Source: Dermatophagoides farinae
Taxonomy: Eukaryota > Arthropoda > Arachnida > Sarcoptiformes > Pyroglyphidae
NCBI RefSeq assembly: GCF_024713945.1
Contig: NC_134685.1
Span: forward strand, 496,001 to 560,000
Reading direction: 5' to 3'
Length of the DNA stretch: 64,000 nucleotides
Below, in pieces: positions 49,823 through 64,000 of this stretch. The notes below the pieces were generated by a model that worked only from the letters and a program-made list of their open reading frames with translations, was not told the origin of the DNA and searched no databases. Both the position numbers and the translations under genes were made by a program. Within the stretch, counting starts at the first letter, position 1; the number at the start of each line of letters is the position of its first letter.

Positions 49823-52440
49823 TGTTACAAATTATTTATTTATTTATTAACAATTATTAGGCATGTATGGTTTTTTTCATCTTGATAATTTATTTTCAAT
49901 AAACTTAAAATAAATGTTTCGATTCTATCTTAAGAATATGTTCATTACGATAACGTTCAATACGTTCGGCTCTTTCATGTCGATTGATTAATGGATTGTA
50001 TTTAACACAGAATACTAATAATGCCATTGTATGATAAAATATGACCAATAAGACTAATTTGACAATACAATCGTAGAAATATTCAACATTTGTTGGAATA
50101 TTAAATATATACATCAATGATTGTATTTCATACGATTTACAACGATCACCACCATAAATAAGCCATAATGTTGCATGAAATTGATACCGATATATTGAAA
50201 AATTCGATAGAAAACGTACGATAAAATTCATTTCTTCAATTACATTGTATACATTGGATAATAATAGAAAAAAGCCCTGTGAAAATCCTATTACAATAAA
50301 TATGGCAATAATTGATCTATGTAGTAACAAAACGTTCATATTCATTAGGGCCAGAAAACACAATGATGATAAATATAAATTGATCACTTGCCACCAGAAA
50401 AAATTATTGGGCGAAACTGTTGAATAGATATCGATTACATAAGCAAAGATTATGACGATCGAAAGAATCATGATAGAATCGAACAATGATTTCGCCAAAT
50501 AATATGCGCCACACGTATACCACCCTTTAATTAGAATAAATTAGTTAATTGGAAGTGATTAAAAAGAAACGAAAATCGAAAACATACCATTTGAATGTTG
50601 AGTTGCGAAAAATTTCACTTCGAAGGAAAACAAGTTGCTTATATGCGCATTCAATATCGAAAAGAATGCTAAACTTGAAAACATGACAAAATTAACATTG
50701 CTGGCAAGACGAGAATCGTTTTTCCATTTATGATCAGTAACATTCAAACAAACAGCTTGAAAATCATCTTCTATCGATATACAACCGTCAATTTCAGCTA
50801 TTTTTTTATCAAAAAAATCAAGAATCATAATGCCTAGAAAGGCGTGTACAATCACACTTGTAAGCCATAATGGCCATTGATATCGGATTGAACAATGAGC
50901 CAAACGTCGGAATAAAATTGATACCGATCGCAATGAAAATCGCATTCGAGGGAATGGTACACCATCCTTTATATGAACAGCATCCTGTAACAGCGACGGT
51001 GTGATTTTATTGATTTGATTATCAGTTTTTTCGGCTAATCGCTGTACGATGGGATTCAAGTGACCAGTGCAAGAATATCGAATGAGAGTTTCGATTGGGA
51101 ATCGTTTATCTTCATCGATGGAAGATGCTTCACTGAGAAAACTTTTGATTTGGGCTGGCGGTCCTGAATAGATACCAAGGCCATCGAATGCAAGCACATA
51201 GCATAGGTCAAACATGTCCAATTGTTCGGTACTAGGTTGATGAATGCTGACCACCATAGTGATATCTGGATGACGAGCAATGAATTGTCGAAGACATCGG
51301 AGGACCAACCGGGCCGAATTGGAATCCAAACCACTGACAGGTTCATCAATGCAAATTAGATTGGGCATTCGAACGGATGTCAATTCCATTGCCAGAGCCA
51401 GTCGTTTCCTTTCTCCACCGGAACAATTTTGTACCAAAGTGTTGGCCGTGTTGGTCATGTCTAATTCATTGAGCAAATTGTCAGCCACTTGTTCATGATC
51501 AATTGCTTGTGTTTCGTGACAATTCTTTAATTTAGAAGCATAGACCAAACTTTGTTTGCTTGTCAATCCGGGTATCAAGTGTTTGGATACTTCTTGTTTG
51601 ATATAGCAAGTCCGAATCGGTACGAATCGACTGAGGTAGAATTGTGTCGAGCCGGTCAGTTTGGTCTTCATTTTTCCATTGAAAACTTTCAACAGTGACG
51701 TTTTGCCCGAACCGGAGCTGCCCATGATTGCATTCAATGTTCCAAACTGAAATTGTCCACTGAGATTCCGTAATATCAACTTGTCTCCCAAATCATCTAA
51801 CGATTCAGGTGTAGGACGCACTTCATAGATGGTATCAGTCGCAAACAATGTCAATTGACGCCATCCAATTATGTAACGGCCAGTACAAAATTGTTGAAAT
51901 TCATTTTTGGTCATTTCAGGTTCAATATTATTATTATTACTATCAAAAATCTGGACAAACGTAGGCTTTTCATGAAAATCGATTTCAATTGCAGGAGTTA
52001 GGATTTTTGTCAATGTTTCTTGCTTTGTTTCTGATACGATTTTTCCATTGTTCACATTGCTAAATGTCCAACGCATCACAATGATAGAAATGATTCGAAT
52101 CACTATTATTACAATCATCGGCTTTTCTAGGTTTGAATAGACATGGTCTGTGTCGACAAAAAATTGTTTCAATATTTGTGAATATTCTGTTTGTGGATCG
52201 CAACGATCAATACCATAGTATGTATGGAGATATCCACCTGCAATAAATCGAGAAGCAAGTAAATGTGATATTGTTCGATAAAATGGTTTGTCCATTAAAT
52301 CACTGATAACTATCAATCCATTATTTATATTTACTATAACCACCACTACTTGACATAGAATGATAAGTATTTCAAATTGATCAATACAAATACTGGTCAA
52401 TAAATAACCGAATGATTGGCCATACAAGAATGAAACAATG
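49460..52440. repeat. Segmental duplication, copy A
   Basis: This stretch matches 61033-64000 in the same orientation. It begins in the middle of exon 2 of the secreted orphan (TTGATCACTAGTCCTGTCCG) and runs through its stop codon and most of the ABCG gene. Similarity is very high over the orphan 3' end and NBD2, and lower in patches of the membrane domains. The duplicated unit extends past the window end, so the other breakpoint is unseen. Confidence 0.92.
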
Positions 52441-54036
52441 TTAAATAAATATAGAGTACTCAAACGATACCAATTTATTCGATATTCATCAATATAGAGA
52501 ATGCCACTAGTCACATAATAAGTCACAACGCTTATAATAACGATGAATATCAATGTGATCAAGTCATTCGCATGAACAGGATGGATTAATGATGAAAAAC
52601 TGTACCAACCTGTAAAATATATAAATTAGATATATACTGTGTTCAATGCTACGAGTCTTACCAGTACGATATTCGTGACGGAGAATTTTCATAAAATTCA
52701 CTGTCATCAACGAATACATTGCTATACCGAGTGAAAATGTAAGTAATATTATTAAAAAAAGTAGCATAATAAGTGTTCCGATTAATCGATCTTCTTTCAA
52801 TTTATTCTGACAGGTTTGATTCAAATGTTCAATATTGAATGGTATACATCCTCGTGGTATCACCATATCTTTATTGGTGATTGATGTATAAGTAATAAGA
52901 GTTATTATGATTAAAATCAAAATACCAATTATATGCCGAACATCTGCTATGAATGTCAAACGTAATAGACGCCAGAATTGTGTCCAAAGATCCGAACTAC
53001 GAAATTTTCGTGAATAATGAGGAATGCCCTTTGGAATAAAAGCAAATGGACATTCTTCTTTTTCAAATTTACTGAATTGAGCTGTAAGTCGTTGATGGTC
53101 TTGTTGCACACTTTCTTTTGTTAATTTTCTCACTTGTTCATCATTGATGCCATTGCTAGCGATACGAAGATATTCCTGGATCGGAGAATCATCCTCATTC
53201 AATGCGATTCCAGTGATTTGATTCAGATGTGACCGTAATCGATCCGGTTGATCAGAATAAATGCAAACACCTCCTTTGGCTATGATATACAATTGATCGA
53301 ACATATCCAATATATCCGAACTGGGAGCATGAATTGACACGAGGACTGTGATGCCATTCTGTGTGGACAATCGTTGTAGACACTTCATAACCACCAATGC
53401 TGACTCACTATCCAGACCGGTAGTAGGTTCATCGATGAACAAAAACGGTGGTTTCGATTCGATTGACATCAGCTCTTGAGCGATAGCCACTCGACGTTGT
53501 TCGCCACCAGAGCAATTTTCGAAACGTGTTTGCAACACTTTTGGATTTAGCATTAATTCCTGAATCGTTGACTGGATGTGTTGATATGCTCGGCCATGAT
53601 AGTGAGCAGGATTCTTGAAGCAGAATGCATAATACAAAGTCTCGAGCACTGTGAACCGTCCAAGGATTATCTCATGAACGAATTGTGGCACAAAACTGAC
53701 CAATGAATTCGATGACTTTGTGATTATTTCACTGTTAATATAAATTTCAGTGTCGGGTGAAATGTTCTTGGCTGGAACATTGCCAATGAGACAATTTATG
53801 AGCGAAGTTTTACCGGCACCGGATGGTCCAAGCAATGCATTCAAACTGTTTATCCGTACTGATCCATTAAGACGATTGAGGATCACTTTTCGCCGTCGTC
53901 GTGGTTGCCAACCATCGACCATAAACCATTCATCAACTTCATAACGTAAATTTTTCCAACACAACGAAATTGGTTTTTTGAATTCACAACATACATCTGT
54001 TTCATTCGACATCATTTTATCAAATAAAATGCTCAT
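49905..54036 (-). CDS. Full-length ABCG transporter (NBD1-TMD1-NBD2-TMD2), copy A
   Basis: Three exons, 54036-52662, 52609-50588 and 50524-49905, give about 1338 residues. NBD1 has Walker A GPSGAGKTS, signature CSGGEQRR, Walker B LFIDEPTTGLD and H-loop SIHAPSS (about residues 40-290). TMD1 spans about 400-640. NBD2 has Walker A GSSGSGKTS, signature CSGGERKR, LICIDEPVSGLD and SIHQPSTE (about 690-960). TMD2 spans about 1060-1330. NBD-before-TMD order and the RTGWYS / SNGWYT start of each membrane domain are ABCG features. The exons join in one frame: each intron interrupts a Gly codon just before the WY of a TMD, at equivalent sites in the two halves, which supports an ancient internal duplication or fusion. 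Metazoan ABCGs are usually half-size. Substrate unknown; lipid or xenobiotic efflux is typical of the family. Confidence 0.88.
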
Positions 54037-61464: not shown

Positions 61465-64000
61465 TTAAAATAAATGTTTCGGTTCTATCTTAAGAATATG
61501 TTCATTACGATATCGTTCAATACGTTCGGCTCTTTCTTGTCGATTGATTAATGGATTGTATTTAACACAGAATACTAATAATGCCATTGTATGATAAAAT
61601 ATGACCAATAAGACTAATTTGACAATACAATCGTAGAAATATTCAACATTTGTTGGAATATTCAACATATACATCAATGATTGTATTTCATGCGATTTAC
61701 AACGATCACCACCATAAATAAGCCATAATGTTGCTTGAAATTGATAACGATAAATTGAAAAATTCGATAGAAAACGTACGATAAAATTCATTTCTTCAAT
61801 TACATTGTATACATTGGATAATAATAGAAAAAAGCCCTGTGAAAATCCGACAAAAGTGAATAAGGCAAGAATTGATCTATGTAGAAACAATACGTTCATA
61901 TTCATTATGGCCAAAAAACATAATGATGATAAATATAAATTGATCACTTGCCACCAGAAAAAATTGTTAGGCGAAACTGTTGAATAGATATCGATTACAT
62001 AAGCAAAGATTATGACCATCGGTAGAATTGTGGTAGCATCGAACAATAATTTCGACAAATAATATGAGCCACAGGTGTACCAGCCTTTAATTAGAATAGA
62101 TTCATTGATTAAAATAAATGAAAAAGAATCCCAAATTGAAAACATACCATTTAAATGTTGAGTTGCAAAAAATTTCAATCCCAATGAAAACAAGTTGATA
62201 ATTTGAGCGTCCAATATGAAAAAGAAAATGAAACTTGAAAAAATTACAAAATTAACATTGCTGACAAGACGAAAATCGTTTTTCCATTTATGATCAGTAA
62301 AATTCGAACAAACGGCTAAGAAATCATCTTCTATCGATATACAACCGTCAATATTAACTATTTTTTTATCAAAACAATCTAAAAACATGGTTCCTAAAAA
62401 TACGTAGAAAATCAGGTATGTCAACCATAATGGCCATTGATATCGGATTGAACAATGGGCTAAACGATGGAATAAAATGGCTACCGATCGCAATGAAAAT
62501 CGCATTCGAGGGAACGGTACACCATCCTTTATATGAACAGTATCCAGTAACACCGATGGTGTGATTTTATTGATTTGATTATCAGTTTCTTCGGCTAATC
62601 GTTGTACGATTGAATTCGAGTGATCAGTGCACGAATACCGGATAAGTGTTTCAATTGGGAATCGTTTATCTTTATCGATGGAAGATGTTTCACTGAGAAA
62701 ACTTTTGATTCGGGCTGGTGGTCCTAAATAGATACCAAGGCCATCGAATGCTAGCACATAGCATAGGTCAAACATGTCCAGCTGTTCGGTACTAGGTTGA
62801 TGAATGCTGACCACCATAGTGATATCTGGATGACGAGCAATGAATTGTCGAAGACATCGAAGGACCAACCGTGCCGAATTGGAATCCAAACCACTGACAG
62901 GTTCATCAATGCAAATGAGATTGGGCATTCGAACGGATGTCAATTCCATTGCCAGAGCCAGTCGTTTCCTTTCTCCACCGGAACAATTTTGCACCATAGT
63001 GTTGGCCGTGTTGGTCATGTCTAATTCATTGAGCAAATTGTCAGCCACTTGTTCATGATCAATTGTTTGTGTTTCGTGACAATTCTTTAATTTAGAAGCA
63101 TAGACCAAACTTTGTTTGCTTGTCAATCCGGGTATCAAGTGTTTGGATACTTCTTGTTTGATATAGCAAGTCCGAATCGGTACGAATCGACTGAGGTAGA
63201 ATTGAGTCGAACCAGTAAGTTTGGTTTTCATTTTTCCATTGAAAACTTTCAACAATGATGTTTTACCCGAACCGGAGCTGCCCATGATTGCATTCAATGT
63301 TCCAAACTGAAATTGTCCACTGAGATTACGTAATATTAACTTGTCTCCAAAATCATCCAACGATTCAGGTGTAGGACGCAATTCATAGATGGTATCAGTC
63401 GCAAACAATGTCAATTGACGCCATCCAATTATGTAACGGCCAGTACAAAATTGTTGAAATTCATTTTTGGTCATTTCAGGTTCAACATTATTATTATTAC
63501 TATCGAAAATCTGGACAAACGTAGGCTTTTCATGAAAATCGATTTCAATTGCAGGAGTTAGGATTTTTGTCAATATTTCTTGCTTTGTTTCTGATACGAT
63601 TTTTCCATTGTTCACATTGCTAAATGTCCAACGCATCACAATGATAGAAATGATTCGAATCACTATTATTACAATCATCGGCTTTTCTAGGTTTGAATAG
63701 ATATTGTCTGTGTCGACAAAAAATTGTTTCAATATTTGTGAATATTCTGTTTGTGGATCACAACGATCAATACCATAGTATGTATAAAGATAGCCATCGG
63801 CAATATATCGACTACCAAGTAAATGTGATATTGTTCGATGAAATGGTTTGTCCATTAAATCAATGGTAACTATTAATCCATTAGAAGCATTTAATATGAC
63901 CAAGATTACTTGAGATAGAAGAAGAAGTAATTCAAATTGATCGATACACGTTGCGATCAACAAATAACCGAATGATTGACCATACAAGACTATAACTAAT
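61465..64000 (-). CDS. Full-length-type ABCG transporter, copy B (partial)
   Basis: The 3' part of a paralogue of the gene at 49905-54036: the rest of TMD1, NBD2 and TMD2, with exons 64000(beyond)-62148 and 62084-61465. NBD2 keeps GSSGSGKTS, CSGGERKR, LICIDEPVSGLD and SIHQPSTE. The sequence is nearly identical to copy A in NBD2 and the last TMD2 section, and clearly different in the first TMD2 helices. The 63-base intron (62147-62085) has GT...AG ends but contains no stop and is a multiple of three, so unspliced RNA would also be translatable. There is no disabling change in the visible part. The 5' half lies outside the window. Confidence 0.9.
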   Translation of the reverse strand, partial: LVIVLYGQSFGYLLIATCIDQFELLLLLSQVILVILNASNGLIVTIDLMDKPFHRTISHLLGSRYIADGYLYTYYGIDRCDPQTEYSQILKQFFVDTDNIYSNLEKPMIVIIVIRIISIIVMRWTFSNVNNGKIVSETKQEILTKILTPAIEIDFHEKPTFVQIFDSNNNNVEPEMTKNEFQQFCTGRYIIGWRQLTLFATDTIYELRPTPESLDDFGDKLILRNLSGQFQFGTLNAIMGSSGSGKTSLLKVFNGKMKTKLTGSTQFYLSRFVPIRTCYIKQEVSKHLIPGLTSKQSLVYASKLKNCHETQTIDHEQVADNLLNELDMTNTANTMVQNCSGGERKRLALAMELTSVRMPNLICIDEPVSGLDSNSARLVLRCLRQFIARHPDITMVVSIHQPSTEQLDMFDLCYVLAFDGLGIYLGPPARIKSFLSETSSIDKDKRFPIETLIRYSCTDHSNSIVQRLAEETDNQINKITPSVLLDTVHIKDGVPFPRMRFSLRSVAILFHRLAHCSIRYQWPLWLTYLIFYVFLGTMFLDCFDKKIVNIDGCISIEDDFLAVCSNFTDHKWKNDFRLVSNVNFVIFSSFIFFFILDAQIINLFSLGLKFFATQHLNGMFSIWDSFSFILINESILIKGWYTCGSYYLSKLLFDATTILPMVIIFAYVIDIYSTVSPNNFFWWQVINLYLSSLCFLAIMNMNVLFLHRSILALFTFVGFSQGFFLLLSNVYNVIEEMNFIVRFLSNFSIYRYQFQATLWLIYGGDRCKSHEIQSLMYMLNIPTNVEYFYDCIVKLVLLVIFYHTMALLVFCVKYNPLINRQERAERIERYRNEHILKIEPKHLF

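Follow-up and report, generated by a model that had tools for sequence, protein, structure and literature searches.

Animal half-size ABCG transporters (White, ABCG1, ABCG2, ABCG4, ABCG5 and ABCG8) carry an NBD followed by a TMD, and each of the White-type half-transporters of family TIGR00955 has a single NBD and a single TMD. By comparison, the PDR pumps of fungi and plants (Pdr5, CDR1; TIGR00956) carry NBD-TMD-NBD-TMD in a single polypeptide. According to the available parts of the respective papers, metazoan ABCGs reported to date are half-transporters only (PMC3724490), the full ABCG structure was lost in metazoa (PMC4649718) and full-size ABCGs are confined to plants and fungi (PMC4923091). 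The first-pass annotation of the locus described here had likewise taken animal ABCGs to be half-size and the full-size layout to belong to fungi, plants and some protists. Against this stands an excerpt of another paper, in which full-size ABCG transporters are mentioned, on the basis of cited papers, for an oyster and for a shrimp (PMC4247197); there may therefore be earlier claims in other animals.

For mites and other arachnids, the available excerpts describe arachnid ABCGs as few, with a median of 3.5 (PMC8290562), and Tropilaelaps as being without an ABCG expansion (PMC5467014). Large ABCG sets are recorded in excerpts on the acariform mites Tetranychus urticae (23) and Aculops lycopersici (16) as well (PMC3724490, PMC7738191), and the 23 T. 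urticae proteins are given an NBD-then-TMD organization, i.e., they are half-size, unlike the fused mite copies described below (PMC3724490, in the part available). An expression table for Psoroptes ovis, from a partly available paper, includes two genes whose annotation reads ABC transporter G family member 20 (PMC12364353). None of the titles and abstract openings among the literature matches listed is about full-size ABCGs in mites, which is no proof of absence. What appears to be new here is a full-size ABCG family in an animal, most likely of independent origin. Since metazoan ABCGs have been said to be all half-transporters, this family would, if the reading is true, mean that the full-size layout arose a second time, by convergence.

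Architecture of the gene and its genomic copies

The window analyzed here is a stretch of 64,000 nucleotides (C9:496001-560000) of the 62.4 Mb, 22-contig genome of Dermatophagoides farinae. It contains a minus-strand gene whose parts are listed in Table 1. A single gene model with the order NBD1-TMD1-NBD2-TMD2 and intact nucleotide-binding motifs in both halves had been proposed from a first look at the sequence; its coordinates proved exact to the base, Pfam found two stretches each of ABC_tran (PF00005) and ABC2_membrane (PF01061) in the protein (the latter with 60.7 bits against a cut-off of 26.9), and a motif alignment of NBD1 and NBD2 confirmed the motifs. These comprise Walker A (GPSGAGKT at residue 70 and GSSGSGKT at residue 755), the signature CSGGE at residues 175 and 854, and a DEP Walker B, the Q-loop Gln and the H-loop His in both halves. 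In each half the NBD is N-terminal to the TMD, as membership in the ABCG subfamily requires and as is likewise the case in the animal half-size proteins. A hydropathy scan predicted 12 helices, six after each NBD; the same scan predicted 11 helices in each of two paralogues. Exon 2 lies inside a 688-codon open frame that runs from TMD1 through the linker and NBD2 into TMD2, and the fusion is therefore independent of where the introns are placed.

Table 1. Features of the full-size ABCG gene (window positions) and exons of its neighboring paralogue L031 (contig positions)
Feature	Position	Strand	Basis
Full-size ABCG coding region, 3 exons, 1338 aa	49905..54036	-	ORF, spliced model and Pfam
Exon 1: NBD1 and first TMD1 helices	52662..54036	-	spliced model
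Intron 1 (phase 1, 52 bp), splitting the Gly codon ahead of WY	52610..52661	-	GT-AG
Exon 2: remaining TMD1, linker, NBD2, TMD2 start; single open frame	50588..52609	-	ORF and model
Intron 2 (phase 1, 63 bp), splitting the Gly codon ahead of WY	50525..50587	-	GT-AG
Exon 3: remaining TMD2, stop TAA ending at 49905	49905..50524	-	spliced model
NBD1, codons 22-270	53227..53973	-	model and motif alignment
TMD1, codons 360-640, 6 predicted helices, intron 1 within	52065..52959	-	hydropathy; coordinates from exons
Linker between halves, codons 641-696; no stop and no AATAAA/ATTAAA on minus strand	51897..52064	-	
NBD2, codons 697-950	51135..51896	-	model and motif alignment
TMD2, codons 1040-1320, 6 predicted helices, intron 2 within	49962..50867	-	hydropathy; coordinates from exons
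AATAAA x3, 3' of the stop, candidate 3' end	49835..49894	-	motif scan
L031 exons	C9:561582-560229, 560169-558148, 558084-557465	-	

A genome search with the window NBD2 gave 105 matches, 29 of them at 300 bits or more, and a search with NBD1 gave 115 matches, from which 29 NBD1-type places were picked by hand, two rows of one gene being merged. Every one of the 29 NBD2-type matches at or above 300 bits has a same-strand NBD1-type match upstream; the median distance is 1296 bp, with 27 pairs falling at 1246-1377 bp and the other two at 2427 bp and 569 bp. The pairs are spread over six contigs (C3, C4, C6, C7, C8 and C9), with six lined up on C3 (5.614-5.644 Mb) and four lying on C9 at 2.01-2.04 Mb. 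The same architecture at 29 loci argues against chance or a local misassembly. With about 29 copies against the 12 half-size loci sampled, the fused type appears to outnumber the other kinds of ABCG observed in the genome.

Besides the window gene, 14 copies could be modelled automatically as spliced genes free of internal stops (1303-1421 aa), although some ends and extra introns of these models are unsure. In two more copies, L017 and L028, NBD1-TMD1-NBD2 is visible in the available stretch, and the evidence for the remaining 11 pairs consists of NBD matches alone. L028, in which NBD1 through the start of TMD2, with both Walker A motifs, lies in one unspliced frame of 1127 codons, is the clearest proof of fusion. 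A 54-bp intron in the automatic model of L028 was rejected as an artefact because the frame stays open across it, and the automatic model of L017 also contains unneeded introns. The 15 modelled proteins (window included) keep the ATP-site residues and have the signature CSGGE or CSGGQ; the exceptions, both in NBD2, are CSNGE in one of the 15 (L037) and CSDGE in L017, which is outside the 15.

The neighbor of the window gene, L031, is a full-size paralogue about 7.4 kb upstream (C9:557465-561582); its 3' part occupies window positions 61465-64000 on the minus strand and the gene runs on beyond the window end. In the pair with the 569-bp distance (L036, C6:4505576-4508652) nothing corresponds to residues 210-519 of the window protein, and this copy looks truncated. 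An extra, divergent NBD1/NBD2 pair (C3:813971-817121; 813971/816420) lies near L017, itself full-size, and is outside the 29. The half-ABCG gene L008 (C6:2845414-2847250) lies about 6.6 kb from the full-size L040 (C6:2853823-2857981) on the same strand. An ABCG5-like half gene (L022, C2:6914465-6915106, minus strand) and an ABCG8-like one (L015, C2:6925063-6925623, plus strand) are divergently oriented about 10 kb apart; the rough models of both are without SGGE, and the Walker A of L022 reads GSKGSGKK.

Relation to PDR pumps and to half-size ABCGs

A PDR-type full-size ABCG, either inherited from the eukaryote ancestor and kept or gained from fungi, plants or protists, would have the same domain order as the window gene, and the loss of an ancient full-size ABCG in Metazoa has been inferred (PMC4649718, in the part available). 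ABCG or PDR chains make up the first 27 of 43 PDB matches to NBD1 and the first 27 of 46 to NBD2, and PDR chains top both lists when their two domains are summed. Scored per domain, however, NBD1 reaches 92-98 bits with ABCG1, ABCG2 and ABCG25, the best being ABCG25 and ABCG2, against at most 80 bits with PDR domains, ABCG5 and ABCG8 (75-76 bits) being level with PDR. NBD2 reaches 70-100 bits with half-ABCGs, ABCG1 scoring best, against at most 61 bits with a PDR domain. The PDR family model TIGR00956 gives 203.9 bits on the window gene, far under its cut-off of 1959. The best NCBIfam match is TIGR00955, at 327 bits and spanning a whole half, which is likewise short of its cut-off (736); the window protein departs from the layout of that family in having two halves per chain.

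At the level of motifs, three aligned PDR chains have Cys in place of the Walker A Lys and Asn in place of the Walker B Glu in NBD1, where the mite NBDs are canonical, and their NBD2 is without SGGE, unlike that of the window gene. A fungal-type degenerate ATP site is absent from the mite fused copies in the motif alignment, and no PDR-associated Pfam domain was found at E values up to 10 in exon 1, in exon 2 or among the best 25 of 33 matches for L028. The mite proteins are also shorter (about 1340 aa, against about 1500 aa for PDR).

The phylogeny of NBD1 and NBD2 that the first-pass annotation had put forward as a check was run on 47 rows with few outside references, which included two fungal PDR proteins and were without ABCG2, plant PDR and other mites. 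Left out of the tree were the near-identical C3a_2, C3a_3, C3a_6 and L031, NBD1 of L017 and L028, the truncated L036, and L010, L014, L018, L020, L026 and L030, which were judged ABCA-like, partial or without a clear NBD; among the rough half-gene NBDs that were used, L003 seems to retain an intron and the ends of L008 and L022 are unsure. The tree placed NBD1 and NBD2 together and away from both fungal PDRs and mite half-ABCGs. Shared fusion ancestry with PDR predicts that N-terminal halves group with N-terminal halves and C-terminal halves with C-terminal halves. In AU tests, whose p-values here and below are optimistic because the groups were named after the tree had been seen, both groupings were rejected (NBD1 with PDR-N, p 0.006; NBD2 with PDR-C, p 0.010), which argues against common descent. 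A single clade of all full-size NBDs, mite and PDR, was disfavored but stopped short of rejection (p 0.067), which counts in favor of a PDR origin. Given the two rejections, the per-domain scores, the motifs and the TIGR00956 score, a PDR origin of the mite gene is improbable.

It is more doubtful still that the locus encodes two half-transporters on two mRNAs and that the joint model is an annotation artefact. A Met does lie near the end of the linker in the window and L031 proteins, and the gene itself contains six further AATAAA or ATTAAA sites, one of them in TMD1 at 52474. This Met column is missing, however, from the other 13 of the 15 models; between TMD1 and NBD2 the minus strand has neither a stop nor one of these hexamers, and the frame that connects the halves stays open in every one of the 15 models and is unspliced in L028.

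Origin of the two halves and their shared intron

In the NBD tree, 11 NBD1s form one group (100/98) and 13 NBD2s another (100/100). Both groups fall into a single clade (100/99) with the degenerate L025, and the fungal, plant, human and mite half-size NBDs in the tree lie outside it. The fused copies thus differ from animal half-size ABCGs in having an NBD clade of their own as well as two halves per chain, and the duplication is older than the expansion of the family. An origin of the gene by internal duplication or by fusion of half-genes, as had been suggested from the window alone, gains support from this clade, from the AU rejections and from an intron ahead of WY in both halves of 15 models. 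The best reading of the sequences is that one half-gene was duplicated and fused in the mite lineage and the product then multiplied. That halves from two distinct half-ABCG lineages were joined instead is the least credible of the alternatives, given that, for all the modest identity of NBD1 and NBD2 (about 37% in the window gene) and the missing TMD1 intron in two copies, both NBD types share the clade with L025, AU tests rejected NBD1 plus L025 (p 0.0006) and NBD2 (p 0.005) as members of the six-row mite half-ABCG clade, and the intron site is common to both halves of the modelled copies.

All 15 models (window included) have a phase-1 intron in the codon ahead of WY, once in TMD1 and once in TMD2. 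In TMD2 the split codon is always Gly. In TMD1 the window gene, L031 and L043 likewise split a Gly codon, and the other models split one for Gln, Lys or Arg. The observation in the first-pass annotation that the introns fall at equivalent positions in the two halves, in a Gly codon before WY, holds for the window gene, where both are phase 1, but the TMD1 intron is missing from L017 and L028, two of the 17 copies with sequence there, in which the site reads NEHRNRWYS straight through (for both copies the intron status is known for the TMD1 site only). These two are found among intron-bearing copies in the NBD2 tree, with weak support (82/83, 84/87). The simplest history would be that the intron is ancestral to the duplication and was later lost from TMD1 in L017 and L028. 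Because these copies are without it, the introns may also have been gained independently at the same site in both halves.

Fourteen loci, including L009 and L011, which overlap, were scanned for the same site. The five half-ABCGs that are readable, L002, L006, L007, L013 and L019, have contiguous coding sequence where the modelled fused copies have the intron; only L006, L007 and L013 among them read NGWY there, and these three have the motif NGWYS in common with the fused copies. In eight of the 14 loci a clear site before WY was not found by pattern. L025 (C5:5257945-5259820), a degenerate ABCG with Walker A GPQNCGKT and signature CTVEER, reads NG and then GTAAGT where the fused copies share their intron; the tree places it next to the NBD1s (95/79) with a long branch, and an upstream half may exist.

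Under the reading of self-fusion, a half-size ABCG gene with an intron ahead of WY would have been duplicated head to tail, the first copy would have lost its stop so that the two frames were joined, and the fused gene would then have multiplied in the genome. It is highly probable that the window gene is a genuine single-chain ABCG exporter of the mite, one of about 29, formed by tandem duplication and fusion of a half-gene. The wider proposal is held with moderate confidence: that an animal full-size ABCG arose independently of fungi and plants by self-fusion of a mite half-gene, became the most numerous ABCG type seen in the genome (about 29 against the 12 half-size loci sampled) and exchanges TMD cassettes between conserved NBDs. 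A viral source was not supported by the viral contigs (36 pattern matches, no relative), nor a bacterial one by the genome contigs (64 loci, the best segments of which cover parts of the NBD2 query at 22-39% identity).

Divergence among the copies and possible function

In six pairs of paralogues, some sharing a copy, omega was 0.06-0.17 for the NBDs, 0.12-0.69 for the TMDs and 0.20-1.34 for the linker. The NBDs are thus under strong purifying selection, with weaker constraint on the TMDs and the weakest on the linker. The faster divergence of the TMDs suggests that the copies may differ in substrate.

Between the window gene and L031, base differences amount to 1.8% over the NBD1 block (codons 1-350), 19.2% over TMD1 (codons 351-600), 2.9% over the block of linker and NBD2 (codons 601-950), 11.8% over codons 951-1250 (13.8% in 951-1150 and 7.7% in 1151-1250) and 2.3% from there to the end, and the borders of the divergence blocks are sharp. 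Values of dS shift in parallel (NBD1 0.06, TMD1 0.27, NBD2 0.12 and TMD2 0.21). Such shifts are not explained by relaxed selection on the protein alone, and the mosaic is therefore likely to reflect conversion between tandem copies or an exchange of cassettes among them.

Judging from other members of the ABCG family, both halves of a single chain would pair like two half-ABCGs, and ATP would be bound and hydrolyzed at two composite sites, both of which look active. The substrate would leave through the TMD interface, lipids or xenobiotics being the default guess, and the approximately 29 copies with faster-evolving TMDs are candidates for lipid or xenobiotic export. As fusion fixes the pairing partners and both ATP sites are canonical, the family could serve as a natural experiment on what ABCG proteins gain from fusion.

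The Blo-t-5 allergen family is not known from outside the mites, and its presence in this genome points to an astigmatid mite. Its Pfam model (PF11642) matched the genome at 184.5, 114.9 and 27 bits and none of 14 control prokaryotes, and two genes of this family lie in divergent orientation at C4:4170433-4171937.
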